Part shown: piece after piece, positions 44,567 through 63,682 of the stretch | How positions within the stretch are numbered: the stretch's first letter is position 1 | Layout of the letters: each line of letters begins with the position of its first letter | Assembly: GCF_029870955.1 (NCBI RefSeq) | Contig: NZ_PGFQ01000001.1 | Location: forward strand, 806,001 to 870,000 | Direction: 5' to 3' | DNA from: Sulfitobacter faviae | GTDB lineage: Bacteria; Pseudomonadota; Alphaproteobacteria; Rhodobacterales; Rhodobacteraceae | Length of the DNA: 64,000 nucleotides | The notes under the pieces: model-generated | The model's input: only the letters and a program-made list of their open reading frames with translations | Told to the model about the DNA's origin: nothing | Databases searched by the model: none | Position numbers and translations under genes: made by a program

Positions 44567-44758
44567 CCCGTGGCTATGCAGTCTACCTCGACTTAAAACC
44601 CACTAACCCGCCTCTCCCGTCAACTGGGAGGGGCACACCCGCAGCACCCGCTATAGGTGTGTCAACGGTGGGGCACTAAACTGGGGCACTCCGAGACCTA
44701 CGGGTGGTCGGGGTGTCTTATCTACCTGACGGGGAGAGTGTTGGCTGGGATGGTAGGA
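44510..44758 (-). repeat. Right arm of the 249-bp inverted repeat, ending in an inverted tRNA-Gln 3' end
   Basis: This is the reverse complement of 43924-44172 with one mismatch. Positions 44742-44758 are the inverted last 17 bases of tRNA-Gln, a pseudo-att site. The repeated AGTGCCCCA motifs appear inverted here, and TGGGGCA / TGGGGCG copies lie just beyond (44810-44828). Between 44759 and 44879 I see no gene. Confidence 0.93.
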
Positions 44759-44879
44759 ACCCTTGCGTTTCGTTGTTTTGAATCACCTTTTCTACTCAAC
44801 CAACAAAACTGGGGCAAAAGATGGGGCGGTTTAGGCCCTAGCCTCCCCGTGACAACCAGCCCAAAGCCACCTCCCGCTC

Positions 44880-45323: not shown

Positions 45324-45358
45324 GGAAGCGGTACCTGAGACAGTTGAGTATCAAGAGA

Positions 45359-46657: not shown

Positions 46658-47006
46658 TATTAACCTCCCGCCCTGCGGCATTATCTGTGCATTTTGTTAT
46701 CAATTGTGGGAAGTATTACCCGTATCTTGTGCTCTTGGAAACCCTTGCGGTCCCTAATTGATCATGGTGAGCTCAGCCCCCAAAGATCTTGCTGAGAGAC
46801 TGCAGGTATCAGCATTTAGTCCTCCGCTGAACCGAGAGAAATTGCGTATCTAAATCGATAGAAATCGATGGAGATTTGTGATGCTTTCACAATTACTTAG
46901 AAGTACCTTTACTTCGGCGAAGCTCCGTAAAAGACGGGTCGTTCTCGGTAGCTGCCAGTTAATACCGGTCTTGTTCTTGTTTTGCATTTTTGGGCTAGAC
47001 TAAAAA
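46658..47006. other. Non-coding AT-rich stretch of the island
   Basis: This 349-bp region lies between the AAA ATPase start and a truncated gene. I see no open frame with protein character and no RNA gene. It probably holds the divergent promoters of the ATPase and the truncated gene. Confidence 0.5.
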
Positions 47007-47112
47007 ATGGAGCATGAACTGAAAGAAGGCACCCTCGTCGTAATCCGTGCGCTCGACGACATCCCCGAGCACCTTGGACCTGTCGCGTTTTTGTGCCGCC
47101 CCACGTGCTCGT
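47007..47112 (+). pseudogene. 5' fragment of an unknown gene cut off by an IS3 element
   Basis: ATG 47007 opens MEHELKEGTLVVIRALDDIP and continues for about 35 residues until the IS3-family element begins near 47111. The sequence looks coding (acidic, even composition), but the rest of the gene is not found on the far side of the IS. I do not recognise the family. Confidence 0.4.
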
Positions 47113-47970
47113 TTAGGCCACTTTCCTTTCGAAAGCGACCGGGATTTTCCAACCCAGTGCTGAGTGCCGCCTTCGCGGATTGTAGAAGCCGTTGATGTAT
47201 TGGAAGATGGCCAGCTCTGCTTCTCTTCGCGTATGCCATGGTCTCCGCCAGATCAGCTCTGCCTTGATCGTCTTGAAGAAGGTCTCGACGGCAGAGTTGT
47301 CATAACAATTGCCCTTGCCGCTCATCGATACCATGAACCCATGGTGGCGCAGAAGCTTCTGGTAGTCGTGCGAACAATATTGCGACCCACGATCGGTGTG
47401 ATGGATGCAGCCCTTGGGCGGCTGCCGCAGCGCAACAGCCATTTTCAATGCCCGGATTGCCAGGTCGCGCTTCATCCGGTTGCTCACCGCCCAACCGATC
47501 ACCCGGCGTGAATGCAGATCGAGGATAACCGCGAGATACAACCACCCTTCACGGGTCCACACATAGCTGATGTCACCTGCCCACTTCTGATTGGGTCCCT
47601 CCGCCTGGAAGTCACGGTTCAGCAGGTTGGGCGCAATGTTGAAGGCGTGATTACTATCCGTTGTCACCTTGTATCTCTTCGATCTCTCGACCCGTATGCC
47701 ATTCTCACGCATCAATCTGCCAACCCGACGATGGCCGACATTCAAGCCCAGCTCTTTCAATTCTTCCGTCATCCTCGGTCGTCCATAGCTGCCCAAGCTT
47801 AGACGGGATTGCTCCTTGATGTGGGCCAGCACGACCATGTCAGTCCTCTGTCTTTGGCTGGCAGGGCGGTTGCGATAGGCGCGCAGGCCGCGTGAGCTGA
47901 CACCCAGCACGTCACACATCCGCTTGGCGCAGAAGGCGTGACGGAGTTCTTCGATGAACCGAAACCTCAT
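47113..47970 (-). CDS. IS3-family transposase OrfB (integrase core)
   Basis: The 285-residue frame has the HTH_21 region (YGRPRMTEELKELGLNVGHRRVGRLMRENGI) followed by an rve integrase core. DDE residues lie in WAGDISYVW (D), HHTDRGSQYCS (D) and YDNSAVETFFKTIK (E). The ATG overlaps the orfA stop (ATGA). The normal active product is probably OrfAB made by -1 frameshifting at 48000-48006. Sequence is intact. Confidence 0.88.
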   Translation of the reverse strand: MRFRFIEELRHAFCAKRMCDVLGVSSRGLRAYRNRPASQRQRTDMVVLAHIKEQSRLSLGSYGRPRMTEELKELGLNVGHRRVGRLMRENGIRVERSKRYKVTTDSNHAFNIAPNLLNRDFQAEGPNQKWAGDISYVWTREGWLYLAVILDLHSRRVIGWAVSNRMKRDLAIRALKMAVALRQPPKGCIHHTDRGSQYCSHDYQKLLRHHGFMVSMSGKGNCYDNSAVETFFKTIKAELIWRRPWHTRREAELAIFQYINGFYNPRRRHSALGWKIPVAFERKVA

Positions 47971-48242
47971 GGCTTTTGCCCCGCGAAGAACTGCGTTGCC
48001 TTTTTTAGAATCTCCCTCTCCTCCTTGAGAATGCGGTTCTCTCGCCGAAGCCGTTCATTCTCCCGGGCAAGTTCCAAGTCCTTGTCAGGCACCACATTGG
48101 TGTCACGATGCGCCGTCACCCACTTGTTCAGCGTCGATAAGCCAATATCCAAATCTGAGGCAACTTGCCTGCGTGTCAGCCCGCTTGTCAGCGCGATCCG
48201 CACCGCATCAGCGCGGAATTCGTCCGTGCGTTTCGTTCCCAT
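47967..48242 (-). CDS. IS3-family OrfA (DNA-binding subunit)
   Basis: This 91-residue protein starts MGTKRTDEFRADAVRIAL and contains an HTH (RRQVASDLDIGLSTLNKWV) and a leucine-zipper-like stretch (LARENERLRRENRILKEEREILKKA). It binds the IS ends and regulates transposition. A longer start at 48263 is possible. The slippery heptamer A-AAA-AAG sits at LKKA near the C terminus. Confidence 0.85.
   Translation of the reverse strand: MGTKRTDEFRADAVRIALTSGLTRRQVASDLDIGLSTLNKWVTAHRDTNVVPDKDLELARENERLRRENRILKEEREILKKATQFFAGQKP
48000..48006 (-). promoter_or_regulatory. Programmed -1 frameshift site of the IS3 element
   Basis: On the minus strand the codons CTA AAA AAG contain the slippery heptamer A-AAA-AAG. 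Slipping back one base leads into GGC AAC GCA GTT... which stays open to the orfB start. This is the usual IS3 route to OrfAB and explains one apparent frame switch that is not an error. Confidence 0.7.
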
Positions 48243-48293
48243 AGTTCGTCTCCTTTGCTGCAATAAATGCTATCAAAGGAGCGGCATCAAACC

Positions 48294-49247
48294 GTGACAC
48301 GTCCAGAACTGACGACGCTGACCAAGCGGCGAGAGGCGGCGCTCAGGGCGATGCGGGATCACGGCATCTCGCAGCGCCGGGCCTGTCGGCTTGTCGGTGT
48401 CGACCCAAAGACAGTCCGGCGCGAACGCCCGCCGGACTGCCCTGAGATCCGCAAGGAGATGCAGGAGATCGCCGGAAAGCGGCGCCGGTTCGGCTACCGC
48501 CGGATTGGCGTGTTGCTTGAGCGCAAGGGCATGAAAATGAATCACAAGAAACTGTATCGGCTCTACCGGGAAGAAGGGTTGTCAGTGAAGCGGCGGCGCG
48601 GCCGCAAGCGGGCCCGTGGAACGCGCTCCCCGATGCCGGAGGCTGCGTATCCCAATGCGCGCTGGTCTCTGGACTTCCTGGCTGACAGCTTCGGCCCATC
48701 CCGGAAATTCCGCATCCTGGCAGTGATAGACGATTGCAGCCGCGAAAACCTGTGCCTGATTGCTGACACCAGCATCTCCGGCGCGCGTGTTGCGCGTGAG
48801 CTGGATGCGCTGGTGCGGATCTACGGTAAACCCGGATGCATAGTCAGCGATCGAGCCATTGGAACGCCATTGGTCCGAGAGACAATGGCGAGGGGGACAG
48901 AGTTCACGAGCCGGGCCATTCTGAGGTGGGCCGATCAGAACGCAATTCCGTGGCACTATATCGACCCAGGGAAGCCGCAGCAGAACGCCTTCATCGAGTC
49001 ATTCAACGGCAGCCTGCGCGACGAACTGCTGAACGAGGAGATATTTGACACCCTGGACGACGCCCGCCGGAAGCTGGCGCTCTGGCGTTACGATTACAAC
49101 ACCGTCAGGCCGCACTCATCGCTCGGGAACAAAACACCGGCCGAAGCGCGCCGGACGCTTGAGCAATTTGAGGGCTCCGCGCCCGGCGCGCTTGCCAAGC
49201 CCGAAACCGACGACTATCAAAATCAAACCCGCAGACTCTCGTCATGA
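48294..49247 (+). pseudogene. IS3-family transposase (OrfB) of a second, truncated element, with an insertion in the catalytic core
   Basis: The frame contains the HTH_21 part ([44 protein letters not shown]) and an rve core ending [14 protein letters not shown]. The orfA portion is missing, cut off where the first IS3 element abuts. The usual core segment SDNGTEF is split: about 13 extra residues ([14 protein letters not shown] replacing N) stand between SD and GTEF at 48850-48897. They are built around a hairpin CGCCATTG / CAATGGCG (48865-48890). The enzyme is therefore probably inactive. Confidence 0.75.
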
Positions 49248-49450: not shown

Positions 49451-50318
49451 ATGAGCACAAAATATTTCGCGCCACACGGGGGCACCCCGGACAAGAGCAG
49501 CTTCTTACCGATCGCGCCATCTTCAAGGATGCCTATGCCGTCATTCCGAAGGGCACAATGCGGGACATCGTTACCAGCTTTCTGCCCTTCTGGGAGGAGA
49601 CGCGCCTTTGGGTCATCGCGCGGCCAATGAGTGGGTTTGCCGAGACTTTTTCTCAATACATCATGGAAGTGCAGCCCGGCGGGGGCTCTGACAAAGCCGA
49701 GCTGGACCCGGAGGCCGAAGGCATCCTTTTCGTGGTGGAAGGCACCGCGACTTTGCGGGTCGGTGGCGAGTCCTATAAGCTGAGCCCGGGCGGCTATGCG
49801 TATCTGCCCCCATCAAGCGGCTGGACCCTGCGAAACGAAGGAGACGAAGTCTTGCGGTTCCACTGGGTGCGCAAGGCCTATGAGGCCGTCGCGGGGTTGG
49901 ATATGCCCGACGTATTGGTCCTGAACGAAAACGATATCGAACCGACGCCAATGCCCGGCACGGATGGCAAATGGTCGACAACCCGCTTTGTCGATCCGTC
50001 CGACCTGCGCCACGACATGCATGTCACGATTGTTACCTTCGAACCGGGCGGCGTGATCCCTTTCCTTGAGACACATGTGATGGAGCATGGGCTCTATGTT
50101 TTGGAGGGCAAAGCGGTTTACAATCTGAACAATGACTGGGTCGAAGTCGAAGCTGGCGACTATATGTGGCTTCGCGCTTTTTGCCCTCAGGCGTGCTATG
50201 CGGGGGGCCGGGGCGGTTCCGCTACCTGCTTTACAAGGACGTAAACCGGCATATGGCGCTTCGTCCCGGAACTGCGTCATACCCTCAGCATCAGCGGCTT
50301 AAGGCTGCGGCCGAGTAA
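49451..50318 (+). CDS. uglY: (S)-ureidoglycine aminohydrolase, two frame breaks
   Basis: This cupin enzyme hydrolyses ureidoglycine to ureidoglycolate and ammonia in allantoin breakdown. The protein opens MSTKYFAPHGG, then breaks at the G run 49478-49482 (one added G gives HPGQEQLLTDRAIFKD). It runs through two cupin domains (PGGGSDKAELDPEAEGILFVVEGTATL and PGGVIPFLETHVMEHGLYVLEGKAVY), then breaks at 50202-50207. One added G leads to GGPGRFRYLLYKDVNRHMAL and a stop at 50316-50318, overlapping the bhcR stop. The total length, about 289 residues, fits the family. It is the first chromosomal gene after the island. Confidence 0.86.
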
Positions 50319-51147
50319 CGTCGCCTCCGATTGCGAGGCTCAATTCATGAGCCGCCTTGATGACGGGGCGGCTCAGTTCTTCGACCTCTGACGCGCCGAC
50401 CCTGCTTGTCGGCCCCGATATCGAGATCCCCGCGACAGCTTCGCCATTCATGTCGAATACCGGCGCTGCGATACAGCGCATGCCCTCGTTTCTCTCTTCA
50501 TTATCGACTGAAAAACCGCTTTCCCGAATGGCTTCGAGGTTCTGGCGCAGGGCTGCCGGATCAACGATCGTATGGGCGGTGAAGCGCGTCATCTGCCCCT
50601 TCGACAGAAGCTTGTCCAAACGCTCAGGCTCCATATAGGCGAGCAACGCCTTACCGATGCCGGAGGCATGCATTGGCGACAGGCTGCCGGGTGGGAAAAA
50701 GGCACGGATGTTCGCATGTGTTTCCACCTGGCTCAGAAACAAAACCGCATCTTCTTGCCCCTTGCCGATATTGGCTGTTTCACCGGTCGTTTCCATCAGC
50801 TTTCGCATGATGGGTCGCGCACGATCGACAAGGCTCGTGCGCCGAAGGAAACGCGCGCCGATCACAAAGGCGCGCGGGCCAACGTACCAAACCTGCTCTT
50901 CGTGATCGAATTCGACCAGCCCCCTGCCCTCGAGCGTTACAAGGATGCGGTAGACGGTCGCTGGCGATTGGCGCATTTCATCCGCCAGCTTGGTGAGCGG
51001 TTTGCCCTGTGCTTCGCTCAGATACTCAAAGACCTCCATGGCCCGGTCGAGCGATTTGATCGTGTTCTGCGCGGTCTTGTCCGTCCAGCCGCGCGGCCTT
51101 CCGCGTGCCCTGCGAGCCGCCCCAGAACCATTTTCTTGAGAATCCAT
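50299..51147 (-). CDS. bhcR: IclR-family regulator of the beta-hydroxyaspartate cycle
   Basis: The 282-residue regulator has an N-terminal winged HTH (LDRAMEVFEYLSEAQGKPLTKLADEMRQSPATVYRILVTLEGRGLV) and an IclR ligand-binding domain (HASGIGKALLAYMEPERLDKLL). It is divergent from bhcABCD, the position of BhcR in Paracoccus denitrificans, where glyoxylate is the effector. I chose ATG 51147 (MDSQENGSG) because the longer reading to 51231 starts with a hydrophobic stretch unlike the family. It ends 20 bp into uglY, convergent. Confidence 0.83.
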   Translation of the reverse strand: MDSQENGSGAARRARGRPRGWTDKTAQNTIKSLDRAMEVFEYLSEAQGKPLTKLADEMRQSPATVYRILVTLEGRGLVEFDHEEQVWYVGPRAFVIGARFLRRTSLVDRARPIMRKLMETTGETANIGKGQEDAVLFLSQVETHANIRAFFPPGSLSPMHASGIGKALLAYMEPERLDKLLSKGQMTRFTAHTIVDPAALRQNLEAIRESGFSVDNEERNEGMRCIAAPVFDMNGEAVAGISISGPTSRVGASEVEELSRPVIKAAHELSLAIGGDVTRPQP

Positions 51148-51316
51148 AAGAACTTTTCGCTCACATGTGAAAGATAAACTCACGATATGAAAAATATAAG
51201 CCACTGACAAAACTCGGAATAACCAGAGCATTTAAAAAATGAAAGCTCATTTCAAAAAAGTATCAGCCCGCCTCGGCCCCGTCTACTGTGAGATCAACAA
51301 CGGAAGGAGACCGTCC
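51148..51316. promoter_or_regulatory. Divergent control region between bhcR and bhcA
   Basis: The AT-rich 169-bp region contains the perfect palindrome TCACATGTGA (51161-51170) and the gapped repeat TGAAA-N5-TTTCA (51240-51254). Either could be a BhcR operator. The bhcA ribosome-binding site is GGAAGGAG (51302-51309). Confidence 0.45.
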
Positions 51317-52505
51317 ATGAGCTTTCAAAATCCCGTTTTCATCCCGGGCCCGACGAACATCCCCGAAAGCCTGCGCAAGGCCTGCGACATGCCGACGATC
51401 GACCACCGATCACCGCTGTTCGGCCAAATTCTGCATCCCGCGCGTGCAGGTGTTCGGCAGATCCTGAAAAGCGACAACGCAGAGGTCTTCATTTTCCCGT
51501 CCACTGGCACGGGGGGTGGGAAACCGCGCTGACCAATACGTTGTCGCCCGGTGACAAAGTGCTTGCGGCGCGCAATGGCATGTTCAGTCATCGTTGGATC
51601 GATATGTGCCAGCGCCATGGCCTTTCCGTGCAAGTAGTCGAAACCACATGGGGCGCGGGGCTTCCGGCGGATCGCTATGAAGAGATTCTGACCGCGGATA
51701 AGAACCACGAGATCAAGGCGGTCCTTGCCACACATAATGAAACGGCCACCGGCGTGAAATCGGACATCGCGGCGGTGCGCCGTGCGCTGGATGCATCGGG
51801 TCATCCTGCGATGCTGTTCATCGATGGGGTATCGTCGATTGCCTCGATGGATTTCCGCTTCGACGAATGGGGCGTGGACGTTGCCGTGACCGGGTCGCAA
51901 AAAGGGTTCATGCTGCCCGCAGGCCTCGCCATCGTTGGCTTCTCACCCAAGGCGATGGAGGCCACTAAGACCGCCACTCTGCCCCGCACTTTTTTCGATG
52001 TGCATGACATGGCGAAGGGCTACGCGAACAACGCCTATCCCTACACGCCTGCGGTGGGTCTGCTGAACGGGTTGAACCAGGCCTGTGATATGCTGCTGCG
52101 CGAGGGTCTGGAGAATGTGTTTGCCCGGCATCACCGAATTGCTGAGGGCGTGCGCGCGGCGGTCGGCGCTTGGGGCTTGATCTTTGCGCCACCGATCCTT
52201 CGGTCTACTCCGACACCGTCAGCGCCATTCGGACACCGGAAGGCTTTAACGCCACCGATATCGTGACACATGCCGCCAACCGGTATGGGGTCGCTTTTGG
52301 CGTGGGCCTTGGGGAGGTCGCCGGCAAGGTGTTTCGGATCGGCCACCTCGGCAGCCTTACGGATGTCATGGCCCTCTCCGGTATTGCGACGGCAGAGATG
52401 TGCATGGTCGATCTTGGACTGAACATCGAACTCGGTTCCGGGGTCGCGGCGGCCCAAGAGTATTATCGCGGCCATTCTGCGGCAGCGCAGAAGGACGCTG
52501 CGTGA
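51317..52505 (+). CDS. bhcA: Aspartate-glyoxylate aminotransferase, two frame breaks
   Basis: BhcA transfers the amino group of aspartate to glyoxylate, giving glycine and oxaloacetate, as the entry to the beta-hydroxyaspartate cycle. This class V PLP enzyme starts MSFQNPVFIPGPTNIPE and carries the PLP lysine in AVTGSQKGFMLP. The frame is lost in the G run 51511-51516 (repair: GTGGWETALTNTL) and near 52178 (repair: AWGLDLCATDPSVYS), giving about 396 residues. The stop overlaps the bhcB start (TGATG). A GGAAGGAG sequence supports ATG 51317. Confidence 0.88.
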
Positions 52506-53476
52506 TGAAGGACACTCAGATGTACATCCCCACTTACGAGGACATGCTAGAGGCTCACGCGCGGATCGGCCCTCACATCCGTCGCACGCCGGTCCGCACC
52601 TCGGACTACCTCAACGAACTGGCCGGTTGCGAGCTGTTCTTCAAATGCGAAAATTTTCAGGAGCCCGGTGCCTTCAAAGTGCGGGGCGCCTCGAACGCGG
52701 TCTTCGGGCTGAGTGACGAACAGGCGGCCAAAGGTGTCGCGACCCATTCCTCTGGCAACCATGCCTCCTGCCTGTCTTATGCCGCTTTGAAGCGCGGCAT
52801 TCCCTGCAACGTGGTGATGCCGCGCACAGCGCCGCAGGCGAAGAAGGACACGGTGCGCCGTTTTGGCGGCGTCATTACCGAATGCGAGCCGTCGACCAGT
52901 TCCCGCGAAGCGACCTTTGCCGAGGTACAGGCCGCGACGGGGGGCGATTTTGTCCATCCCTACAACGATCCGCGCGTGATCGCCGGTCAAGGCACCTGCG
53001 CGCGCGAGTTCATGGAGCAGACGGATGGTCTTGACGCGGCGGTGGCGCCCATCGGCGGCGGCGGCATGATCTCTGGCACTTGCCTCACCCTCGCGACCCT
53101 CGCACCTGAGACTCAGATCATCGCCGCCGAACCTGAACAGGCAGACGACGCTTACCGCAGCTTCAAGGCGGGCCATATCATTGCCGACGATGCGCCCAAA
53201 ACCATTGCCGATGGGCTTCTGGTCCCGCTCAAGGACCTGACTTGGCATTTCGTCTCGAACCATGTGTCCGAGATCTACACAGCGTCGGAGCAAGAGATCC
53301 TAGAGGCGATGAAGCTGACGTGGAAACATCTGCGCGTGGTGATGGAGCCATCCTCTGCTGTGCCGCTCGCGACAGTTCTCAGAAACCCGGAAGCGTTTAA
53401 GGGCAAACGCGTTGGCCTGATCATCACGGGCGGCAATGTCGACCTCGACAGGCTGCCATGGCTGAACGCCGCTTGA
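52505..53476 (+). CDS. bhcB: Beta-hydroxyaspartate dehydratase
   Basis: The 323-residue PLP enzyme of the threonine/serine dehydratase fold turns erythro-beta-hydroxyaspartate into iminosuccinate. The PLP lysine lies in EPGAFKVRGA and the substrate loop in SSGNHA. A glycine-rich phosphate-binding loop appears at PIGGGGMISG. Identity rests on its place between bhcA and bhcC; sequence alone would also fit a threonine dehydratase. It is cotranscribed with bhcA. Confidence 0.87.
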   Translation: MKDTQMYIPTYEDMLEAHARIGPHIRRTPVRTSDYLNELAGCELFFKCENFQEPGAFKVRGASNAVFGLSDEQAAKGVATHSSGNHASCLSYAALKRGIPCNVVMPRTAPQAKKDTVRRFGGVITECEPSTSSREATFAEVQAATGGDFVHPYNDPRVIAGQGTCAREFMEQTDGLDAAVAPIGGGGMISGTCLTLATLAPETQIIAAEPEQADDAYRSFKAGHIIADDAPKTIADGLLVPLKDLTWHFVSNHVSEIYTASEQEILEAMKLTWKHLRVVMEPSSAVPLATVLRNPEAFKGKRVGLIITGGNVDLDRLPWLNAA

Positions 53477-53508
53477 TCCCAAATGACTGAAAATTAAGGA
53501 GCACGGAC

Positions 53509-54672
53509 ATGAAAGATATGACCAATCTCGACGCATACGAAGTGGGCTACGATATTCCGGCAAAACCCGGCATGGACGAGGCCGACATTCAAACCCCGAG
53601 CCTTGTGCTCGATCTTGACGCGCTGGAGCGCAACATCAAGAAGATGGGGGATTACGCCAAGGCGCATGGCATGCGCCACCGGACCCATGGCAAAATGCAC
53701 AAGTCGGTCGACGTGCAAAGGCTTCAGGAAAAGCTCGGCGGTGCCTGCGGTGTCTGCTGCCAGAAAGTCTCCGAGGCCGAGGTTTTTGCCCGGGGTGGCA
53801 TCAAGGATATCCTCGTCTCGAACCAAGTGCGCGATCCTGCCAAGATCGACCGTCTTGCCCGCCTGCCCAAGCTTGGCGCCCGCACGATCTGTTGCGTGGA
53901 CGATCTTGCCAATGTGGCCGACCTGTCGTTGGCGGCGCGGACACATGGCACCGAAATCGAATGTCTTGTCGAGATAGATTGCGGCGCCGGACGCTGCGGT
54001 GTGACCTCCACCTCTGACGTTGTTGAGATTGCCAAGGCCATCGACACGGCTGAGGGTCTTAAGTTCGCTGGCCTGCAGGCCTATCAGGGCGCAATGCAGC
54101 ACCTCGACAGCTATGACGAACGCAAGGCAAAAATAGATATCGCCGTGGCGATGGTCAAAGATGCGGTCGATACGTTGAAAACCGAGGGTTTGGCGTGTGA
54201 CATCGTCGGCGGTGGCGGCACCGGCTCCTACTATTTCGAGTCCAACTCTGGTGTGTATAACGAATTGCAGTGCGGCTCCTATGCCTTCATGGACGCGGAC
54301 TATGGGCGCATCCTCGACAAAAACGGCAACCGCATCGACCAAGGTGAATGGGAAAACGCCTTTTTTATCCTCACAAGCGTCATGAGCCATGCAAAGGCAG
54401 ACAAAGCGATCGTTGACGCGGGGCTCAAGGCTCAATCCGTCGATAGCGGCCTGCCGGTGGTCTACGGACGCGACGATGTCGAGTACGTTAAATGTTCGGA
54501 CGAGCATGGGGTCGTGATGGATCCGAACGGTGCGCTCCGTGTGAACGACAAGCTGAAGCTGGTTCCGGGACACTGCGACCCAACCGCCAATGTGCATGAC
54601 TGGTATGTCGGTGTGCGCAACGGCAAGGTCGAATGCCTCTGGCCTGTCTCGGCACGCGGTCACGCCTATTGA
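53509..54672 (+). CDS. bhcC: Beta-hydroxyaspartate aldolase
   Basis: BhcC joins glycine and glyoxylate to form beta-hydroxyaspartate. The 387-residue protein belongs to the D-threonine aldolase family: an alanine racemase-like barrel (IQTPSLVLDLDALERNIKKM, with the PLP lysine region RTHGKMHKS) followed by a C-terminal domain with metal-site residues (VVPGHCDPTANVHDWYVG). It is 32 bp downstream of bhcB with AAGGAG before the ATG. The preceding and following genes make the cycle assignment firm. A 195-bp gap follows before bhcD. Confidence 0.9.
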   Translation: MKDMTNLDAYEVGYDIPAKPGMDEADIQTPSLVLDLDALERNIKKMGDYAKAHGMRHRTHGKMHKSVDVQRLQEKLGGACGVCCQKVSEAEVFARGGIKDILVSNQVRDPAKIDRLARLPKLGARTICCVDDLANVADLSLAARTHGTEIECLVEIDCGAGRCGVTSTSDVVEIAKAIDTAEGLKFAGLQAYQGAMQHLDSYDERKAKIDIAVAMVKDAVDTLKTEGLACDIVGGGGTGSYYFESNSGVYNELQCGSYAFMDADYGRILDKNGNRIDQGEWENAFFILTSVMSHAKADKAIVDAGLKAQSVDSGLPVVYGRDDVEYVKCSDEHGVVMDPNGALRVNDKLKLVPGHCDPTANVHDWYVGVRNGKVECLWPVSARGHAY

Positions 54673-54867
54673 TCAGCCGGTTCACGGCTGGGCGGCTGCG
54701 TCGTCGCCAAAGACCTGCGCCCCCCTGACCCGGTTTCTCCCGACCCGCACAGGGGGCGCTCTCATTCAAGATAGGTGTCAAACCGCGCTTATCTGCTCGG
54801 AGCCGGCGGCTCAAAGCTGCTGGCCCGCCTCCCGGACTGCTCTGACCCGAAGAATTTGGAGACTAAA

Positions 54868-55833
54868 ATGCTGATCGTACCTGAACGTGAAATTGCCGAC
54901 CTCATGACCCGCGCGGCCGCTTTTGATGCCATCGAAAAGGTGTTCGCCGCGATGGCCTCCGGCGATGCCTACAACTTTCCGGTCGTTCGCGAAGCGATTG
55001 GCCACGAAGACGCGCTTTATGGGTTCAAAGGCGGATTTGACCGCGCGGGCTTGACCTTGGGGTTGAAGGCCGGTGGCTATTGGCCAAACAATCTGGAGAA
55101 ACGCGGGTTGATCAACCACCAATCCACTGTCTTCCTGTTTGATCCCGACAGCGGCAAGGTCAAGGCCATGGTGGGTGGCAACCTGCTGACCGCCCTGCGC
55201 ACGGCGGCGGCCTCCTCTGTGTCGATCAAGCACCTCGCGCGCAAAGACGCCTCCGTGCTCGGCATGGTCGGCGCAGGTCATCAAGCCACCTTTCAACTGC
55301 GCGCCGCCCTGGAGCAGCGCAACTTCGAAAAGGTGATCGGCTGGAATTATCACCCGGAGATGCTGCCCAATATCGAAAAGGTGGCTCAGGAAGCGGGAGT
55401 TCCCTTTGAGGCCGTCGACCTGCCCGCCATGACCGAAGCGGATGTCATCATCTCGATCACCTCCGCCTTTGCGCCCTCGCTGATGGCCGATCATGTCAGC
55501 CCCGGAACCCATGTCGCCTGCATGGGCACCGACACCAAGGGCAAACAGGAGGTCGAAGCCGCCCTGCTCGGGCGCGCTGCCGTTTTCACCGATGAGGTTG
55601 CGCAATCCGTGAGTATCGGCGAGGCGCAGCATGCCATCGCGGAGGGGATCATCACTGAGACCGACGTTGCCCAGCTCGGCGCGGTGATTAACGGAGACCA
55701 TCCGGGGCGCATCTCGAAGGATCAGATCACCCTGTTCGACGGTACCGGCGTGGGGCTACAGGATCTTGCTGTCGCGGCCAAAGTCGTCGATCTGGCTGTC
55801 GAGAAGGGCATCGCGGTCGAAGTGGACTTCTAG
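54868..55833 (+). CDS. bhcD: Iminosuccinate reductase
   Basis: The 321-residue enzyme of the ornithine cyclodeaminase/mu-crystallin family reduces iminosuccinate to aspartate, closing the cycle. The N-terminal region has GLKAGGYWPNN and the Rossmann motif VLGMVGAGHQATFQL. I chose ATG 54868 (MLIVPEREIADLM) over earlier starts. The 195 bp before it contain no gene. It may be read from the bhcA promoter or its own. Confidence 0.89.
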   Translation: MLIVPEREIADLMTRAAAFDAIEKVFAAMASGDAYNFPVVREAIGHEDALYGFKGGFDRAGLTLGLKAGGYWPNNLEKRGLINHQSTVFLFDPDSGKVKAMVGGNLLTALRTAAASSVSIKHLARKDASVLGMVGAGHQATFQLRAALEQRNFEKVIGWNYHPEMLPNIEKVAQEAGVPFEAVDLPAMTEADVIISITSAFAPSLMADHVSPGTHVACMGTDTKGKQEVEAALLGRAAVFTDEVAQSVSIGEAQHAIAEGIITETDVAQLGAVINGDHPGRISKDQITLFDGTGVGLQDLAVAAKVVDLAVEKGIAVEVDF

Positions 55834-55920
55834 CCCAAGCCCATAGCCTCCCAATAACTCACGTTCCGGGTCGCGCCAGAAACGGCGCGGCCTTTCGCGC
55901 GCAACAAGACGGTAGCTTTC

Positions 55921-56433
55921 ATGTTTCTGCCTCTGTCCCTGCTTTTTGTGGGCGCGGTTCTGATCCTGAACGGGTTCTGGATGTCCGGGCGGATCGCGAA
56001 TCGGGAGATCGTTGTCATCAACCTGGCGACGGCAGCGATCACGGCTGCCGTGGCTGCCTTATCGCTGACCCGCGCAATGACCCCAGAAGATGTCCGGACC
56101 GTGGCCCTGACCCTGCTCTTCAGCGTGACCTACCTTTGGGTGGCGGTTAACCGGCTGACCGGCGCAGACGGTCGGGGACTTGGCTGGTTCAGCCTCTTCG
56201 TCGCTCTCTCGGTCCTGCCCCAAGCCTATCAAGCGATCGTGACAGCGGCAGGCTTCGTCGCTCTATGGCTCGGGTTGTGTTGGCTGGCTTGGTCAGGTCT
56301 GTGGTTCTTGTATTTCGTCACATTGGCGTTGCAGAAACAGATACAAGGTCCGACAACCGTCGCGACCCTGGGCGCTGGCGTTCTGACGGCTTGGCTGCCC
56401 GCCCTTGTCTTATTGTACGGAGCGCATCCATGA
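55921..56433 (+). CDS. AmiS/UreI-family urea or amide channel
   Basis: The 170-residue inner-membrane protein has six hydrophobic segments and starts MFLPLSLLFVGAVLILNGFWM, the family N terminus. AmiS/UreI proteins let urea or short amides cross the membrane. In this setting it is likely to move urea released by ureidoglycolate lyase. It overlaps the downstream GAPDH homologue by an ATGA. Confidence 0.82.
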   Translation: MFLPLSLLFVGAVLILNGFWMSGRIANREIVVINLATAAITAAVAALSLTRAMTPEDVRTVALTLLFSVTYLWVAVNRLTGADGRGLGWFSLFVALSVLPQAYQAIVTAAGFVALWLGLCWLAWSGLWFLYFVTLALQKQIQGPTTVATLGAGVLTAWLPALVLLYGAHP

Positions 56434-57429
56434 CCGGCAAACTACGGGTTTTCATCAATGGCTTTGGCCGTATCGGCAGGACATTGCTGCGTCAGATCCT
56501 CGAAGACGACGCTCGGGCCGACGTGGAGATTGTGGGGATCAACGACATCGCCCCGCTGGAAACCTGCATCTACCTGCTTCGCTACGACAGTGTTTATGGC
56601 CCCCTTTGCGTTCCCGTGACTACAGGCGCCAATCAGGTGACGATTGGCGCAAAGACCATCCCCTTCACCCGAGCCAGATTTGCGGGCATTGGACCTGCGC
56701 GGCGTCGACGTGGTGCTGGAGTGTACCGGCAAGGTTCAGGAGCGACAGTTTGCGAAAGCTGGCATTGATGCCGGCGCGCGAAACGTGCTGATCTCGGGTC
56801 CATCGAAAGCGGCCGAACGGACCGTTGTCCTCGGCGCCAATGAGCAGGAGCTGGGCGACGCGCGGATCATTTCCAATGCCTCCTGTACGACCAACGCAAT
56901 CGCGCCACTGCTGCGTACCATCGATCTTGGGCTTGGCATATCGCGTGCGCATGTCACGACAATTCACTGTTACACCGGAAGCCAACCCACGGTGGACCAG
57001 CCCGGCGCCAGTTTGGAACGAAGTCGCGCGGCCGCCGTCTCAATGATACCGACATCCACAAGCGCTGCCGATCAGCTATTTAACATACTACCCGAGTTTT
57101 GTGACCGGCTCAGCGTGGCCGCCGTTCGCGTGCCTTGCATCTCGGTCTCGGCTATCGACGCGACGCTTCAACTTGCCGAACAGCCCGAAGGGTCATGCGT
57201 GGAATTTCTGCGCGAGGCCTTTGCAGGCTCGGCATTGGTTGGGCTTTGCGACGACCCCTGTGTTTCCACCGATTTCCGGGGCCGCCCTGAATCTTTGGTG
57301 ATCGCCCTTCCCGAAACGCAAGAGATCGAACACCGCCAACTGCGCGTCTTTGGCTGGTACGACAACGAATGGGGTTTCTCTGCAAGGATGCTGGATATGG
57401 CGTCGCGCATTGCACATAGGGGCTGCTAA
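56430..57429 (+). CDS. Glyceraldehyde-3-phosphate dehydrogenase homologue, one frame break
   Basis: The protein opens MTGKLRVFINGFGRIGRTLLRQIL (NAD-binding Rossmann fold) and contains the catalytic cysteine in SNASCTTNAIAPLL and the C-terminal GWYDNEWGFSARMLDM. The frame breaks near 56668-56673; two bases appear missing around FTR/EPDL, giving about 333 residues once repaired. It is the only break that does not fit a single G/C loss. The function may be GAPDH or a related phosphorylating dehydrogenase. The setting suggests use in gluconeogenesis from glyoxylate. Confidence 0.78.
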
Positions 57430-57474
57430 TCCCGCCCAGCAAGCTACCCGCATGATCCAAGACTGTCTTAGAGC

Positions 57475-57513
57475 AAAAAAATGCGGCGCAGGGTTTGCGC
57501 CGCATTCTTTTTT
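57475..57513. terminator. Bidirectional terminator between gap and the urate permease
   Basis: An A run (57475-57481), a perfect 10-bp stem ATGCGGCGCA / TGCGCCGCAT (57481-57490 and 57496-57505) and a T run (57508-57513) serve both convergent genes. Confidence 0.85.
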
Positions 57514-57550
57514 CATCATTCGCAACAGTACGCCTGCTGCAAAGGGTTTG

Positions 57551-58975
57551 TCAGACACTGTCAGTTTTGCTTAGCGAGCCCTTTCCATACCCGGACATCC
57601 CGCCGGAGACTTCCTCGGTGGATTCGCTTGAAAGCTCCTCGGGCAGTGCGAGGTTGAGCACGATGGCAATAACAGCCGCGGGCAGAATGCCGGAAGTCGC
57701 CAAGACCTTCAGAGTTCCCGGCAGGTACTGAAGCGCGTTCGGCTCAAGCTGCAGACCCAGGCCGAGCGACAGCGAGATGGCAAAGATCACCATGTTGCGC
57801 CGGTTCCAGTTCACATCTGACAGCATCGAAATGCCCGCCGCCACCACCATGCCGAACATGACGATGACGCCCCCGCCCAGCACTTCGATCGGGATCGAAG
57901 AAATTATGGCACCGATTTTGGGCACAAGGCCGCATACGATCAGGAAAAGTGCGCCAATGGTGACGACCATGCGGCTCATCACACCCGTCATGGCGATCAG
58001 GCCGACGTTCTGGCTGAACGATGTATTGGGCAGCGCGCCGAAAAAGCCCGAGATCGCCGTGCCGATCCCGTCGGCATAGGTCGCGCCCTGAATTTCGCGA
58101 TCCGTCGCCTCCCGACCGGCGCCGCCCATGGTGATACCGGAAACATCGCCCACCGTCTCGATGGCCGAGACAAAGGACATGGCGCAGAAACCGACGATGG
58201 CCGCAACGGTGAATTCAAGACCAAAGTGAAGTGGATTTGGCAGAGCAAAGCTCGCGGCCCGCCCGACATTACCCAGATTGACCTGTCCGAGTGCAACGGC
58301 GACCGCATAGCCGACCAAAAGGCCAATCAGCACCGCCGATACGGACAACATGCCCCGGGTAAAGAATTTCAGCCCAAGCGTCACCAGGATCACCGTTCCG
58401 GCCATGAACCAGTTGAGACCCGAACCGTATTCTTCCGTACCGATTGCCGGCACGCCGCCCGCTGCGTATTGGATGCCGACCTTGACCAGCGCCAGACCAA
58501 TCATAGTCACGACCAAGCCGGTCACCAGCGGCGGCAATGCAAATCGCAGCCTACCGATGAAAAGCCCCAGAAAGGCGTGGAACAGACCGCCCGCGACGAT
58601 CCCACCCATCAAGACCGCGATCGCGTCGACGCCTTTGCCCGCGACGAGCGGGATCATAATCGGTATGAAAGCAAAGGATGTCCCCTGCACGATGGGCAGG
58701 CGCGCGCCAACAGGGCCAAGCCCAACCGACTGGAAAAGCGTCGCAATCCCTGCAAAGAACATAGACATCTGAATCATGTAGATCATTTGCGGGAAGTCAG
58801 GGCTGTTCGAGCCAAAGCCGAAGCCTGCAGCGCCGCAAACGATGATCGCCGGTGTGACGTTCGATACGAACATCGCCAGCACGTGCTGAATTCCGAGTGG
58901 CACCGCTTTTGTTAACGGCGGGGTATAATTTGGATCGCGGAGCTGGTCCGGCGTTCCGATAGATGCATCAGACAT
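57551..58975 (-). CDS. NCS2-family uracil/xanthine/urate permease
   Basis: The 474-residue inner-membrane symporter has 12-14 hydrophobic segments and NCS2 motifs (QSVGLGPVGARLPIVQGTSFAF and the later GGVIVMFGMVVAAG). Adjacent ureide genes favour urate as substrate. GGGAGAAA precedes the ATG. It is the last gene on the minus strand before the bidirectional terminator. Confidence 0.87.
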   Translation of the reverse strand: MSDASIGTPDQLRDPNYTPPLTKAVPLGIQHVLAMFVSNVTPAIIVCGAAGFGFGSNSPDFPQMIYMIQMSMFFAGIATLFQSVGLGPVGARLPIVQGTSFAFIPIMIPLVAGKGVDAIAVLMGGIVAGGLFHAFLGLFIGRLRFALPPLVTGLVVTMIGLALVKVGIQYAAGGVPAIGTEEYGSGLNWFMAGTVILVTLGLKFFTRGMLSVSAVLIGLLVGYAVAVALGQVNLGNVGRAASFALPNPLHFGLEFTVAAIVGFCAMSFVSAIETVGDVSGITMGGAGREATDREIQGATYADGIGTAISGFFGALPNTSFSQNVGLIAMTGVMSRMVVTIGALFLIVCGLVPKIGAIISSIPIEVLGGGVIVMFGMVVAAGISMLSDVNWNRRNMVIFAISLSLGLGLQLEPNALQYLPGTLKVLATSGILPAAVIAIVLNLALPEELSSESTEEVSGGMSGYGKGSLSKTDSV

Positions 58976-59036
58976 TGTGATTGTTTCTCCCTATTGATGC
59001 GTGGGCCGGCTCCCTTATTCTTTGCCGATTTATTGA

Positions 59037-59519
59037 TTATCGCTCGATGATGAATGGCTCATCGAACCAGTGTTCCTCCAGATTTGGGCCGTCGCTGACC
59101 CGATCGACAACGATGAACAGCCCCGGATCGGACAGCGGACACAAAACCCCGTGCCAGACGTTCCGCCCGATGTTCACCGCCTGCCCTGATCCGGCAATAA
59201 ACGCGCGGGGCGCGAACGGGGCCCCGTCCTTATCTTCCGCCAGCACGACAAGATATTCGCCTTCCTGCATCGGCATGAAAGCTTGGCTTCCCAGCGGATG
59301 CCGTTCCATCATTTCCATTGTGAAAGGCATCGAGAACGACTCGGATTGAAAGACGCTGACCCCGAGCCGACCATCAACGTCTAATGTCGCACGATCGTGG
59401 AAACGTCCGCAGCGCCCTTGGTTGATCAGCTTGTCGGGCATGTCCGACGCGTCGATCAGCTCTGCCAACCCCGCGATGGCTCCAGAACTGATTTTGTTTG
59501 CCGTCAAAATGTTACTCAT
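59037..59519 (-). CDS. allA: Ureidoglycolate lyase
   Basis: AllA splits ureidoglycolate to glyoxylate and urea. The 160-residue cupin-like protein shows the family segment MERHPLGSQAFMPMQEGEYLVVLAED near the middle and VNIGRNVWHGVLCPL. The ATG overlaps the puuE-uraD stop in an ATGA, so both are coupled. The product glyoxylate could enter the beta-hydroxyaspartate cycle encoded nearby. Confidence 0.9.
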   Translation of the reverse strand: MSNILTANKISSGAIAGLAELIDASDMPDKLINQGRCGRFHDRATLDVDGRLGVSVFQSESFSMPFTMEMMERHPLGSQAFMPMQEGEYLVVLAEDKDGAPFAPRAFIAGSGQAVNIGRNVWHGVLCPLSDPGLFIVVDRVSDGPNLEEHWFDEPFIIER

Positions 59520-60927
59520 GATGCAAACTTCTCAATCAGGCGCAGTTCTGCGATGCGTTCCACCTGCCTGCAGGCTTCGGAGAACTCGGTATCGCGGTCA
59601 TTTCCGATGCGGCGGTGAAATGCTTCGAGAATGCTCGATTTCGTGTTGTCCTTCACTGCAATGATGAAGGGAAAGCCGTGCCGTTCCACATACTCTCTAT
59701 TGAGTTTCTGGAAGCTCTCCCGCTCTTCATCGGTCAGCAGATCCAGCCCTGCCCCCTTCTGTTCAAGGGTGCTCTCCTTAGTAAGGCGGCCGGCAGCTGC
59801 CAGTTTTCCTGCCAAATCGGGGTGTGCGGTCAGAACCCCCAAACGCTGTTCTTCGGAAGCATTGCGGAATACCCGCGCTAGTGCGTTGTGAATACCTGCT
59901 GCATTGTCATGGGTCGCGCCAAGCTCAAGATCGAATGCGCCCTCTGCGATCCACGGGCTGTGTTCGAACACGCCGCCGAATTCGGCGACAAAGGTTTCCC
60001 GGTCCATATCAGATGGCACGATACCTTTGGCTGGCGGATGCAGGCTGGCCCAGTGATCGGCGATCTGTTCGCGCGTGGCGAACCAGACCCCCTCATGTGT
60101 CGCAAAATGCTCCAGAACCCGCTTCAGAGCCATGGCACGGCCCGGCCGTCCAATAAGACGGCAGTGCAACCCGATCGACAGCATCTTCGGCGCGCCCGCG
60201 ACCCCTTCGGCATAGAGCATGTCGAAACTGTCCTTGAGATAGCTCTCGAACTGGTCACCATTCGTGTAGCCCGCTTGGATCGCGAACCGCATGTCATTGC
60301 AGTCCATCGTGTAGGGCACGATCAACTGGTCTTTGCCCCCGGCCCTGACCCAATAGGGCAGATCATCGGCATAACTGTCAGCGATATAGGCGAAGTTACC
60401 TTCCTCGGCGGCAAGGTCTACAGTATTCATGGAGCAGCGCCCGGTGTACCAACCGCGCGGGGCCTCCCCACCACTTCGGTATGCAGGCGGATTGCCTCGC
60501 GGATCTGGGCGCGTTCTTCGTCCGGCTCCATGTCCTTGTGTTCAATCCACTTCAGACCATGGCTGGCAATTTCCCAGCCCGCATCCTTCATCGCCTTGAG
60601 TTGTTGCGGCGCCCGCATCAGGGCAGTCGTCACGCCATAGACGGTGGTCGGCGTATCTTTTAGCAGATCGTGAACCCGCCAGAAGCCTGCGCGGCTGCCG
60701 TACTCATAGATCGATTCCATGTTCCAGTGGCGTTGACCCGGCCAAGGAGCGGCGCCGGTAATTTCCGAAAGAAAGGCTTCGGACGCGGCATCACCGTGCA
60801 GGATATTGTTCTCGCCGCCCTCTTCATAGTTCAGTACGATCTGTACGGCAATTTTTGCACCGTTTGGCCATTGCGCGGCCGGGATGCTACGACCATAGCC
60901 GGTCATATCTCTTGGGTAACGGTTCAC
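59516..60927 (-). CDS. puuE: Allantoinase PuuE fused to OHCU decarboxylase UraD, one frame break
   Basis: The N-terminal part is a polysaccharide-deacetylase-type allantoinase (YGRSIPAAQWPNGAKIAVQIVLNYEEGGE; SRAGFWRVHDLL; ASHGLKWIEH). The C-terminal part (from about residue 310) is 2-oxo-4-hydroxy-4-carboxy-5-ureidoimidazoline decarboxylase (FVAEFGGVFEHSPWIAE and GFPFIIAVKDNTKSSIL). The frame breaks in the run 60459-60462. One added base joins GRPPRGWYTGRCSMNT and gives 471 residues. GTG 60927 is the start. The fusion handles two steps: OHCU to allantoin, and allantoin to allantoate. Confidence 0.88.
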
Positions 60928-61074
60928 TTGGATATTCCTTCTTGCTTTCTACATCCTAAACTCAAAAACCCAGACGCTTTTTCAAAAAATAATTAAAGGA
61001 GCCTTCTGCCCGTCGACATTTGTCACGGAAACCAATTCTGCGTAAACACGATTAACCTCGGAGGAGAAGTTTGA

Positions 61075-61428
61075 ATGGCCGGCTACCTTACCACCCATGT
61101 GCTCGACACTGCGCGGGGCTGCCCCGCCAAGGGCTTAAAAATCGAATTGTTTCGCCTCACTGGTTCCGATCGGCATTTGTTGAAAACATTGACGACAAAC
61201 GACGACGGGCGCACGGATGAGCAGATCTTGCCCGAGACAGCGTTCGAGCTGGGCGAATATGAACTGCTGTTCCATGCAGGTGCCTATCTGGATGCAAGCG
61301 ACACGCCGCCTGAAGACCCACGCTTCCTAAACGTGATCCCCATCCGGTTTGGCATGTCCGAACAGTCTCACTACCATGTGCCCCTCCTGCTCTCTCCTTT
61401 CGGCTACTCTACATATCGCGGCAGCTGA
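61075..61428 (+). CDS. uraH: 5-Hydroxyisourate hydrolase
   Basis: The 117-residue transthyretin-like protein hydrolyses 5-hydroxyisourate to OHCU. It begins AGYLTTHVLDTARGCPAKGLKIEL and ends with the family tetrapeptide YRGS, after HYHVPLLLSPFGYSTY. GGAGGAG lies upstream of ATG 61075. The gene is divergent from puuE-uraD and convergent with the LysR gene, leaving 21 bp. Confidence 0.93.
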   Translation: MAGYLTTHVLDTARGCPAKGLKIELFRLTGSDRHLLKTLTTNDDGRTDEQILPETAFELGEYELLFHAGAYLDASDTPPEDPRFLNVIPIRFGMSEQSHYHVPLLLSPFGYSTYRGS

Positions 61429-61449
61429 AGCATCGCGGGCGCATCTCGG

Positions 61450-62349
61450 CTAGATCGTCGCGGCGATCCGGTCGACCATGAATTCCATGAACAGGCGCGT
61501 TTTCGGGTCTTGGCGGCGGCGGTGGGTGAACAGGCAGGCCATCTGGATCGGCTCGGGCGGCGTCTTTTCCGCGACCGGGACCAAAGCGCCGGTCCGGAGA
61601 TGGTCCGCAATCTCGAAAACCGGTTTCATCGCGACACCATGCCCCGCAAGGGCCCAATCGGTGAGCACGTCACCGTCGTCAGATTCGTAGCGCCCCGAGA
61701 CCCGAAAACGTTTGGGGCCGTCCTTTGTCTTGAGCAACCACCGAAATTCGGTCGCCCCCGGGAAGCGTAGGTTAAGGCATTCATGCCCTTCCGAAACCAA
61801 AGCATCTCCACCGACGGGCATGCCCCGCCGCACGATATACTCTGGCGAGGCACAGAGCACCCGTTCGACATCCGCAATCTTCCGAATGCGTAGATTGCTG
61901 TCTTCGGGCTGACCTAGGAAAAACGCGAGGTCCAGTCCTTCGGTCGTCAGATCCACCTTGCGGTCCGTCAAACGCAAGCGCACGCTGACCTCGGGATAAC
62001 TCTTCAAGAAGTCGGGAACCTGCGGCGCGATCAATCGACGCCCGACACCCAAGGGCGCCGCCACATAAAGCGAGCCTTTAAGATTTTCGGTGATGTTGAC
62101 GATCTGCGCCTCGGCGCTTTCGACGGCTTCGAGGATCTCAGTCGCGCCCCGGTAGAAAGCCTTTCCCTGCTCGGTCGGGGAAAGACTGCGCGTTGTCCGT
62201 TGGAAAAGCCTGACACCAAGCCGTTCTTCCAACTGGGAAATCCGAGATGACGTCACAGCAGGAGATATCCGCAGATCTCGTCCCGCGGCAGACATGCTGC
62301 CAAGTTCATAGACGCGCACGAAGGTGCGGATGTTATCGAAGTAGGACAT
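61450..62349 (-). CDS. LysR-family regulator divergent from puuD
   Basis: The 299-residue regulator has an N-terminal winged HTH (MSYFDNIRTFVRVYELGSMSAAGRDLRISPAVTSSRISQLEERLGVRL) and a substrate-binding domain. I chose ATG 62349 because the longer reading has a poor N terminus. It is divergent from puuD with a 100-bp control region and likely controls the urate genes in response to a purine intermediate, as in other LysR pairs. Confidence 0.86.
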   Translation of the reverse strand: MSYFDNIRTFVRVYELGSMSAAGRDLRISPAVTSSRISQLEERLGVRLFQRTTRSLSPTEQGKAFYRGATEILEAVESAEAQIVNITENLKGSLYVAAPLGVGRRLIAPQVPDFLKSYPEVSVRLRLTDRKVDLTTEGLDLAFFLGQPEDSNLRIRKIADVERVLCASPEYIVRRGMPVGGDALVSEGHECLNLRFPGATEFRWLLKTKDGPKRFRVSGRYESDDGDVLTDWALAGHGVAMKPVFEIADHLRTGALVPVAEKTPPEPIQMACLFTHRRRQDPKTRLFMEFMVDRIAATI

Positions 62350-62449
62350 TATTCTGTCTTTTTTGATGCTGCTTGGTCCCTCATCGCGATACCAGAACAA
62401 AGCAGTCTCGCCTAGTGTGCTGGAAAATTCGAATCTTAGGAGGCAAGCC
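62350..62449. promoter_or_regulatory. Divergent control region between LysR gene and puuD
   Basis: The 100-bp region holds the palindrome ATTCGAAT (62427-62434) just before the puuD ribosome-binding site AGGAGG (62438-62443). It is a possible regulator site, but no clear T-N11-A LysR box can be singled out. Confidence 0.35.
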
Positions 62450-63682
62450 ATGTACGATTTGGCAATTCTGTGGGACTGGATCGCGTTCAGCGTGCGCTGG
62501 CTGCATGTGATCACTGCAATGGCATGGATCGGTGCATCGTTCTACTTTATCGCGCTCGACCTCATGCTGAAGCCAAACGACGCCCTGCCCGAAGGCGCCT
62601 ATGGCGAAGAGTGGGAAGTGCATGGCGGGGGCTTTTATCACACCGTCAAATATCTGGTGGCGCCCGCCCGGATGCCTGAACACCTGACTTGGCACAAATG
62701 GCAAAGCTACAGCACTTGGCTGTCCGGCGCGGCGCTTTTGATGATCATCTACTGGGTGGGCGGTGAACTATTTCTGCTCGATCCCACCAAGGCCGATCTC
62801 TCGCTTTGGCAGGGCATCCTGATCTCCGGCGGCTCCTTGACGATCGGTTGGCTGCTATACGACGCGATGTGCAAATCGAAACTTGCCGATCACCCCACGG
62901 TTTTGATGCTGCTCTTGTTCGTGATCCTTGTGTTCATGTCCTGGGGATACAACCAGATCTTTACCGGCCGGGCGGCACTGCTGCATCTCGGCGCGTTCAC
63001 AGCGACGATCATGACTGCCAACGTGTTTTTCCAGATCATGCCCAACCAGCGGGTCGTCGTCGAAGACCTCAAGGCGGGACGGACGCCTGATGCGAAATAC
63101 GGCAAGATCGCCAAGGTGCGCTCGACACATAACAACTACCTGACGCTGCCGGTGGTGTTCTTGATGTTGTCGAACCACTATCCGTTGGCTTTTGGAACTG
63201 AGTTCAGCTGGATTATCGCCAGCCTGATCTTTCTGACCGGGGTCACCATTCGCCACTACTTTAACACGATGCACAAAACCGGAACCGGCCCACATTGGAC
63301 TTGGGCAGTGACCGTGTTGCTGATGATTTTGATCGCTTGGCTCTCTACCATTCGGACAGGCGAGACTTGGGAGGACGCAGAGGCCCGTGCGTTGACGGCA
63401 TACGAACAGACCTATGCCGCCGCCGAGGGGTTCGAAAATGCCTACGACACCGTCATCAGCAACTGTTCGATGTGCCATGCCCGAGAACCGGTCTGGGGCA
63501 ATATGCAGTGGGCGCCGAAAGGCGTCTACCTTGAGACACCGGGCGACGTGGCGCGTCATGCTGAGCAGATTTATCTCCAAGCGGGCGTGAGCCATGCCAT
63601 GCCGCCGCCGAACGCCGTACAGATGGATGAAGAAGCGCGGCGCAGCATTGTCGCGTGGGTGCGCGAAGTACGTCGTCAGTAG
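62450..63682 (+). CDS. puuD: Urate hydroxylase PuuD (membrane protein with c-type cytochrome)
   Basis: PuuD oxidises urate to 5-hydroxyisourate and passes electrons to the respiratory chain. It replaces soluble urate oxidase in many bacteria. The 410-residue protein has about eight membrane segments (first at 12-35, family start MYDLAILWDWIAFSVRWLHV) and a C-terminal cytochrome c domain with heme-binding CSMCH at 339-343. AGGAGG precedes ATG 62450. It lies beside uraH, puuE-uraD and allA. Confidence 0.93.
   Translation: MYDLAILWDWIAFSVRWLHVITAMAWIGASFYFIALDLMLKPNDALPEGAYGEEWEVHGGGFYHTVKYLVAPARMPEHLTWHKWQSYSTWLSGAALLMIIYWVGGELFLLDPTKADLSLWQGILISGGSLTIGWLLYDAMCKSKLADHPTVLMLLLFVILVFMSWGYNQIFTGRAALLHLGAFTATIMTANVFFQIMPNQRVVVEDLKAGRTPDAKYGKIAKVRSTHNNYLTLPVVFLMLSNHYPLAFGTEFSWIIASLIFLTGVTIRHYFNTMHKTGTGPHWTWAVTVLLMILIAWLSTIRTGETWEDAEARALTAYEQTYAAAEGFENAYDTVISNCSMCHAREPVWGNMQWAPKGVYLETPGDVARHAEQIYLQAGVSHAMPPPNAVQMDEEARRSIVAWVREVRRQ

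Follow-up and report, generated by a model that had tools for sequence, protein, structure and literature searches.

In Escherichia coli, genes for ureide degradation stand beside gcl, the gene for glyoxylate carboligase, in the allantoin/glyoxylate regulon. AllR of this species is described in the cited sections as an IclR-family regulator that senses glyoxylate (PMC11323563). In Paracoccus denitrificans the beta-hydroxyaspartate (bhc) cycle is encoded by bhcRABCD with a divergent bhcR/bhcA promoter; the cluster was studied for glycolate, and the same sections describe no ureide genes with it, although purines are already named there as a source of glyoxylate, without gene linkage (PMC11323563). 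The PuuD-type purine genes of SAR11 comprise xdh, puuD, the hydroxyisourate, 2-oxo-4-hydroxy-4-carboxy-5-ureidoimidazoline (OHCU) and allantoin steps and an NCS2 permease; glyoxylate is named as the carbon product of purines, the cited part mentions no bhc genes, and the word aspartate appears nowhere in the main text (PMC11698098). No publication joining the ureide and bhc gene sets was among the matches listed, and an earlier mention is possible, for example in the Nature paper of 2019 that deals with the cycle. Here we analyze a locus of Sulfitobacter faviae in which the two gene sets are contiguous. It lies at 49451-63682 of a stretch of 64,000 nucleotides (assembly GCF_029870955.1, NZ_PGFQ01000001.1, 806001-870000, G000:C1 in our survey; genome 3.83 Mb), hereafter the window, to which all positions refer unless another locus is named.

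We consider it likely that this locus is a mobile purine-catabolism island that would feed glyoxylate into the bhc cycle encoded in its middle. The observations behind this reading are the gene content, the recurrent linkage of the two gene sets in other genomes, the carriage of the joined genes on plasmids and the lack of a gcl match. The likeness to the E. coli regulon is that ureide genes adjoin glyoxylate-assimilation genes and a regulator gene of the IclR family. The differences are that the bhc cycle stands in place of gcl, that the route starts at guanine/urate with PuuD, and that the exact predicted BhcR operator is absent from the ureide promoters. Thus two features that define the E. 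coli regulon were not found here, namely glyoxylate carboligase and exact operators of one glyoxylate-sensing regulator at both gene groups. With P. denitrificans the locus shares the same five bhc genes and their divergent promoter.

Profile matches placed every gene named in the preliminary description within these 14 kb (scores are given as bits/cut-off, from NCBIfam unless Pfam is named). On the left, uglY (49451-50318, plus strand) encodes an (S)-ureidoglycine aminohydrolase, UGlyAH (472/338). It is followed by bhcR (50299-51147, minus strand; NF045644, 389/350; start set by alignment to S. faviae) and, on the plus strand, by bhcA (L-aspartate–glyoxylate aminotransferase, 51317-52505), bhcB (beta-hydroxyaspartate dehydratase, 52505-53476; 570/550), bhcC (3-hydroxy-D-aspartate aldolase, 53509-54672; 760/690) and bhcD (iminosuccinate reductase, 54868-55833; 590/500). 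The cycle had been called full, which holds for the gene set, as bhcA-D and the divergent bhcR are all present, but not for the reading frame of bhcA, which is broken in this assembly and matches only in pieces (one open reading frame (ORF) with 422 bits, cut-off 650). The plus strand continues with an AmiS/UreI-family urea/amide channel gene (55921-56433, 87 bases 3' of bhcD; Pfam PF02293, 159/25) and gap (56430-57429; NCBIfam and Pfam), a homologue of glyceraldehyde-3-phosphate dehydrogenase (GAPDH) with its N and C domains split over two ORFs.

Three genes on the minus strand follow. The first (57551-58975; TIGR03173, pbuX 423/414) encodes an NCS2 permease of the xanthine/urate type; its earlier label of urate permease is not established. 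The second, allA (59037-59519), encodes a ureidoglycolate lyase with the products glyoxylate and urea. AllA scores over the Pfam cut-off (170/23) and below all eight NCBIfam ureidoglycolate lyase models tried (best 218, cut-off 260), and its counterpart in an S. faviae plasmid is annotated as ureidoglycolate lyase. It is 75-79% identical to AllA of Shimia ponticola and Paracoccus homiensis and about 50% identical to AllA of other linked loci in our named set (see below), which gives two AllA lineages in similar positions. The third gene (59516-60927) is a puuE-uraD fusion of allantoinase and OHCU decarboxylase, in which UraD scores 205/96 and PuuE matches in pieces (248 and 203 bits in two ORFs, cut-off 425). 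The hydroxyisourate hydrolase gene uraH (61075-61428, plus strand; 126/87) and puuD for the membrane urate hydroxylase (62450-63682, plus strand; Pfam Urate_ox_N 432/27, with an S. faviae counterpart) complete the series. Between them, and divergent from puuD, sits a LysR-family regulator gene (61450-62349, minus strand; profile match and S. faviae counterpart) that was missing from the earlier gene list. Past puuD and beyond the window lie lysR, xdhA, xdhB, xdhC, a permease ORF and guaD (L003); the Sulfitobacter W027 counterpart of this second permease is named xanthine/uracil/vitamin C permease. With xdhABC and guaD included, the gene set from guanine to oxaloacetate spans about 23 kb, and Xdh, urate oxidase, UraH, UraD, allantoinase and ureidoglycolate lyase, as expected of a purine/ureide cluster, are all represented (AllA through Pfam alone, PuuE and XdhB as fragments).

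Judged by family membership, GuaD and XdhABC would yield urate, PuuD, UraH and UraD would convert it to allantoin, and PuuE would open allantoin to allantoate. UGlyAH, perhaps bifunctional or aided by an M20 amidohydrolase encoded elsewhere in the genome, would then lead to ureidoglycolate, from which AllA would release glyoxylate and urea. BhcA-D, whose activity is likewise assigned by family, would turn two glyoxylate into oxaloacetate without loss of CO2, UreI would pass the urea, and GAPDH, together with a malic enzyme encoded in a sister operon, would pull carbon toward gluconeogenesis. That sister operon belongs to another genome of the genus (G055), which has two bhc operons, one of them inside a ureide cluster. 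The second (L118, 11945-16366) continues with genes for a redoxin, GAPDH, a malic enzyme/PTA protein and UreI, which suggests a carbon drain from oxaloacetate. Two further loci, L120 (G099) and L122 (G173), have additional bhcBCD genes; a search at 1e-8 gave no BhcA match in the surrounding 20 kb.

To see how far the arrangement recurs, neighbourhoods in other bhc genomes were compared, as the preliminary description had proposed. Among 295 genomes of the family, bhcC scored above cut-off in 126, and proximity was counted in the first 80 of these in order of handle, which span 79 genera. Left out of the counts were bhcC matches below cut-off, 15 partial allA hits below 104 bits and a second group of flavin adenine dinucleotide (FAD) oxidases (<372 bits); "glcD-like" denotes the best-scoring group (393-467 bits), no member of which reaches the curated cut-off of its family. 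The glcD-like gene was taken to represent the textbook source of glyoxylate. Found in 76 of the 80 genomes, allA was at most 10 kb from bhcC in 29 and at most 20 kb away in 31 of the 76, and fewer than 1 of 76 genomes would be expected to have it within 10 kb by chance (simple arithmetic for a genome of about 4 Mb). A glcD-like gene was within neither 10 kb nor 20 kb of bhcC in any of 78 genomes (0/78 for both), 78 of 79 being counted after removal of one genome with only a second-group match. A second-group FAD-oxidase gene, excluded from this count, lies 14 kb from bhcC in the window's own genome. In a set of named loci, the 80 best by BhcC likeness, AllA was present in 34 (22 of 52 among those with full flanks) and a purine gene of some kind in 42. 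Co-occurrence of allA and bhcC was set aside as evidence, as allA is found in nearly all genomes of the family.

The G+C content, 0.644 at 1-44000 of the window, drops to 0.584 in the island and stands at 0.625 beyond guaD. Two IS3-family transposase genes (44001-49247) adjoin the island on its left, with a G+C trough of about 0.51 at 44001-48000, and homology to two Sulfitobacter plasmids starts at 49347, 100 bases past the transposase gene at 48267-49247. Among 72,556 plasmid records, 119 carry a BhcC-like protein at an expectation value (E) of at most 1e-100. The 14-kb query was covered to at least 80% in 3 of 52 plasmid records matched in near mode, all from Sulfitobacter. Six chosen records were inspected and purine genes stood beside bhc in five, from S. 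faviae, Sulfitobacter W027, Ruegeria AD91A, Leisingera R2C4 and Pseudosulfitobacter (pSMR1-1); the sixth was that of Ruegeria pomeroyi DSS-3. The Leisingera plasmid has the molybdate ABC transporter genes modABC beside the set (L175, 7287-9786) and also carries xdhAB. The insertion sequence genes at the left edge, the lower G+C and the plasmid carriage would also be expected if accessory catabolic genes had merely hitch-hiked together on shared plasmids or islands with no functional coupling. We regard this as very improbable; allA in 29/76 against a glcD-like gene in 0/78 near bhcC and the several different junctions speak against it. Moreover, the product of AllA, glyoxylate, is the substrate of both BhcA and BhcC.

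The junctions differ in gene order. The commonest, in 15 of the 80 named loci, is uglY, bhcR and bhcABCD followed by the permease gene, allA and puuE/uraD on the opposite strand; in others bhc lies beyond puuD (L102, L112), the ureide block is inverted (L034, L066) or bhc stands beside a cluster that contains uglY (L087, L109). The genome of L128 gave no bhcC match; in this locus the ureide genes follow the same order, and bhc is missing between uglY and the permease gene. When "linked" was mapped as a label on a quick BhcC tree, a minimum of 14 changes was required (well-supported, starred branches force 3 of them), compared with a mean of 21.7 for shuffled labels; 16 short-flank loci without allA were omitted, and loci whose purine genes did not include allA were labelled unlinked. 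As 14 changes are fewer than the 21.7 of shuffled labels, the linkage has in part been inherited and in part formed anew.

No gcl match at E <= 1e-200 was obtained in any of the 80 bhcC genomes, the window's own included, and the E. coli control was positive. The idea that bhc and gcl exclude each other was dropped, as 80 genomes without bhcC gave 0/80 as well and hence no contrast. Taken together, the claim that purine carbon passes through the bhc cycle is supported by the genomic evidence (29/76 against 0/78, several orders, no gcl in 80 genomes, plasmid carriage), and the assimilation itself stays a prediction.

A number of findings weigh against a purine-fed cycle. The lack of gcl is shared, as just described, by genomes without bhcC. 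In 47 of the 76 genomes with both genes allA is not within 10 kb of bhcC, some perhaps owing to short contigs, and 38 of the 80 named loci have none of the purine genes sought; Ruegeria pomeroyi DSS-3 has no ureide gene listed within 16 kb of bhcC. With allA present in 273 of the 295 genomes, its co-occurrence with bhcC is uninformative. A glcD-like gene occurs in 79 of the 80 bhcC genomes, so the cycle probably serves glycolate as well. Within the island, no gene beyond uglY is dedicated to the allantoate step, changes of strand divide the ureide and bhc genes into several transcription units, the exact bhcR-bhcA dyad was found at no ureide promoter in 1.84 Mb of loci, and uglY, bhcA, gap, puuE, xdhB and the second permease gene are interrupted in this assembly. 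Finally, a urease alpha match in the window's genome permits purines to be read as a nitrogen source.

As to the allantoate step, the uglY product also exceeds the cut-off of an NCBIfam model for a bifunctional enzyme, allantoicase/(S)-ureidoglycine aminohydrolase; if it is truly bifunctional, the step would be closed inside the island. An allantoicase search of the genome gave no match, though the control genomes gave none either. Two M20 proteins score below the AllC cut-off, one of them above the cut-off of an "allantoate amidohydrolase" subfamily.

The urease match, the high nitrogen content of purines and the presence of an NCS2 permease and UreI, which suit nitrogen scavenging, would fit a role of purines chiefly as nitrogen source, with the nearby bhc genes clearing reactive glyoxylate and any carbon gain a by-product. 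We think this unlikely, though less so than hitch-hiking, as a single transaminase or malate synthase could clear glyoxylate, and a four-enzyme cycle of net assimilation with GAPDH, joined by malic enzyme in G055, better suits the use of carbon. The preliminary description had also proposed that nitrogen is shared through aspartate and glycine. In the enzyme steps of the cycle the amino group circulates, with no net gain. Ureidoglycine was considered as a possible amino donor for BhcA. As the net reaction given in the cited sections is two glyoxylate to one oxaloacetate (PMC11323563), nitrogen sharing is unsupported.

The frame breaks in the island are at 49483 and 50208 in uglY, 51517 and 52176 in bhcA, 56672 in gap and 60466 in puuE; further out, xdhB is interrupted by an in-frame stop and the second permease gene by a break near its end. 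One explanation is that the locus is decaying in this strain and that these breaks are real. It draws on six frame-changing losses across four genes in 14 kb, on the xdhB stop and the second-permease break, and on a homologue scan that flagged breaks in 9/17 genes of the locus compared with 3/19 in 20 chunks (400 kb) elsewhere in the genome. The S. faviae plasmid, 98.0% identical over the 14,263-base query and with the same gene order, has the broken genes annotated as single frames. Relative to it, five of the six breaks are 1-base losses and one is a 2-base loss, and four of the five 1-base losses, among them both in uglY, fall in runs of 5-7 G. The ratio of non-synonymous to synonymous differences (pN/pS) between the two ranges from 0.05 to 0.38 over 14 genes and from 0.09 to 0.22 in uglY, bhcA, gap and puuE, which speaks against decay. 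Breaks also occur elsewhere in the genome, and by reading, 3 of the 9 locus flags were judged false (antisense ORF queries, gene ends), which leaves 6/17; all four flags in G055 (1/21 in chunks, 3/15 in loci) were judged false as well. ORF tiling gave 1.01 ORFs per kb with a mean of 295 amino acids in the 20 chunks, and 0.96 per kb with 317 amino acids in G055. Decay is thus improbable, and the breaks are probably assembly errors.

A putative BhcR operator, TGAAA-N5-TTTCA, is located at 51240-51254, 77 bases 5' of the bhcA start codon. The exact dyad has 71 copies in the 1.84 Mb of loci, 53 of them at the bhcR-bhcA promoter by an automatic rule and the remaining 18 also there by their listed neighbours, and each of 19 scrambled versions has 0 or 1 copy. 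A position weight matrix built from the dyad sites found 121 sites at the bhcR-bhcA promoter and 5 elsewhere at threshold. At four of these 5, in related loci (L037 9157, L048 11564, L053 17475, L057 6902), the same degenerate word lies between puuE and uraH; it scores 18.5 against a threshold of 17.8 and a true-site median of 33.7, and may be a weak BhcR site or have arisen by chance. Shared BhcR control of the ureide genes is unsupported for the dyad found, its exact form being limited to the bhcR-bhcA promoter. At 15 bits, two sites were seen in 40 of 68 bhcR-bhcA promoters (the window and L034-L121), 34 of the 40 spaced by 71-73 bases, with the chance of a second site not estimated. In P. 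denitrificans BhcR with glyoxylate activates bhc, and two binding sites are proposed in the cited sections (PMC11323563); the paired dyads fit this two-site model. Glyoxylate itself would induce bhc via BhcR in the island too, and in that case the ureide genes would need no shared operator.

So far the bhc cycle has been treated as a pathway for algal carbon in the form of glycolate. Our comparison of gene neighbourhoods suggests that purines, besides algal glycolate, may feed the cycle in this bacterium and in many relatives of other genera. If so, marine bhc genes and transcripts could not be taken to mean glycolate use only, and the turnover of nucleic acids would be an anaplerotic carbon source without loss of CO2 at the glyoxylate step. 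A bolder proposal, which we hold only tentatively and think rather less likely to be right than wrong, is that in much of the marine Rhodobacterales the bhc cycle forms, or originally evolved as, the last module of purine catabolism, within a guanine-to-oxaloacetate unit spread by plasmids. In that event, the abundance of bhc in seawater would reflect the use of purines in addition to that of glycolate.

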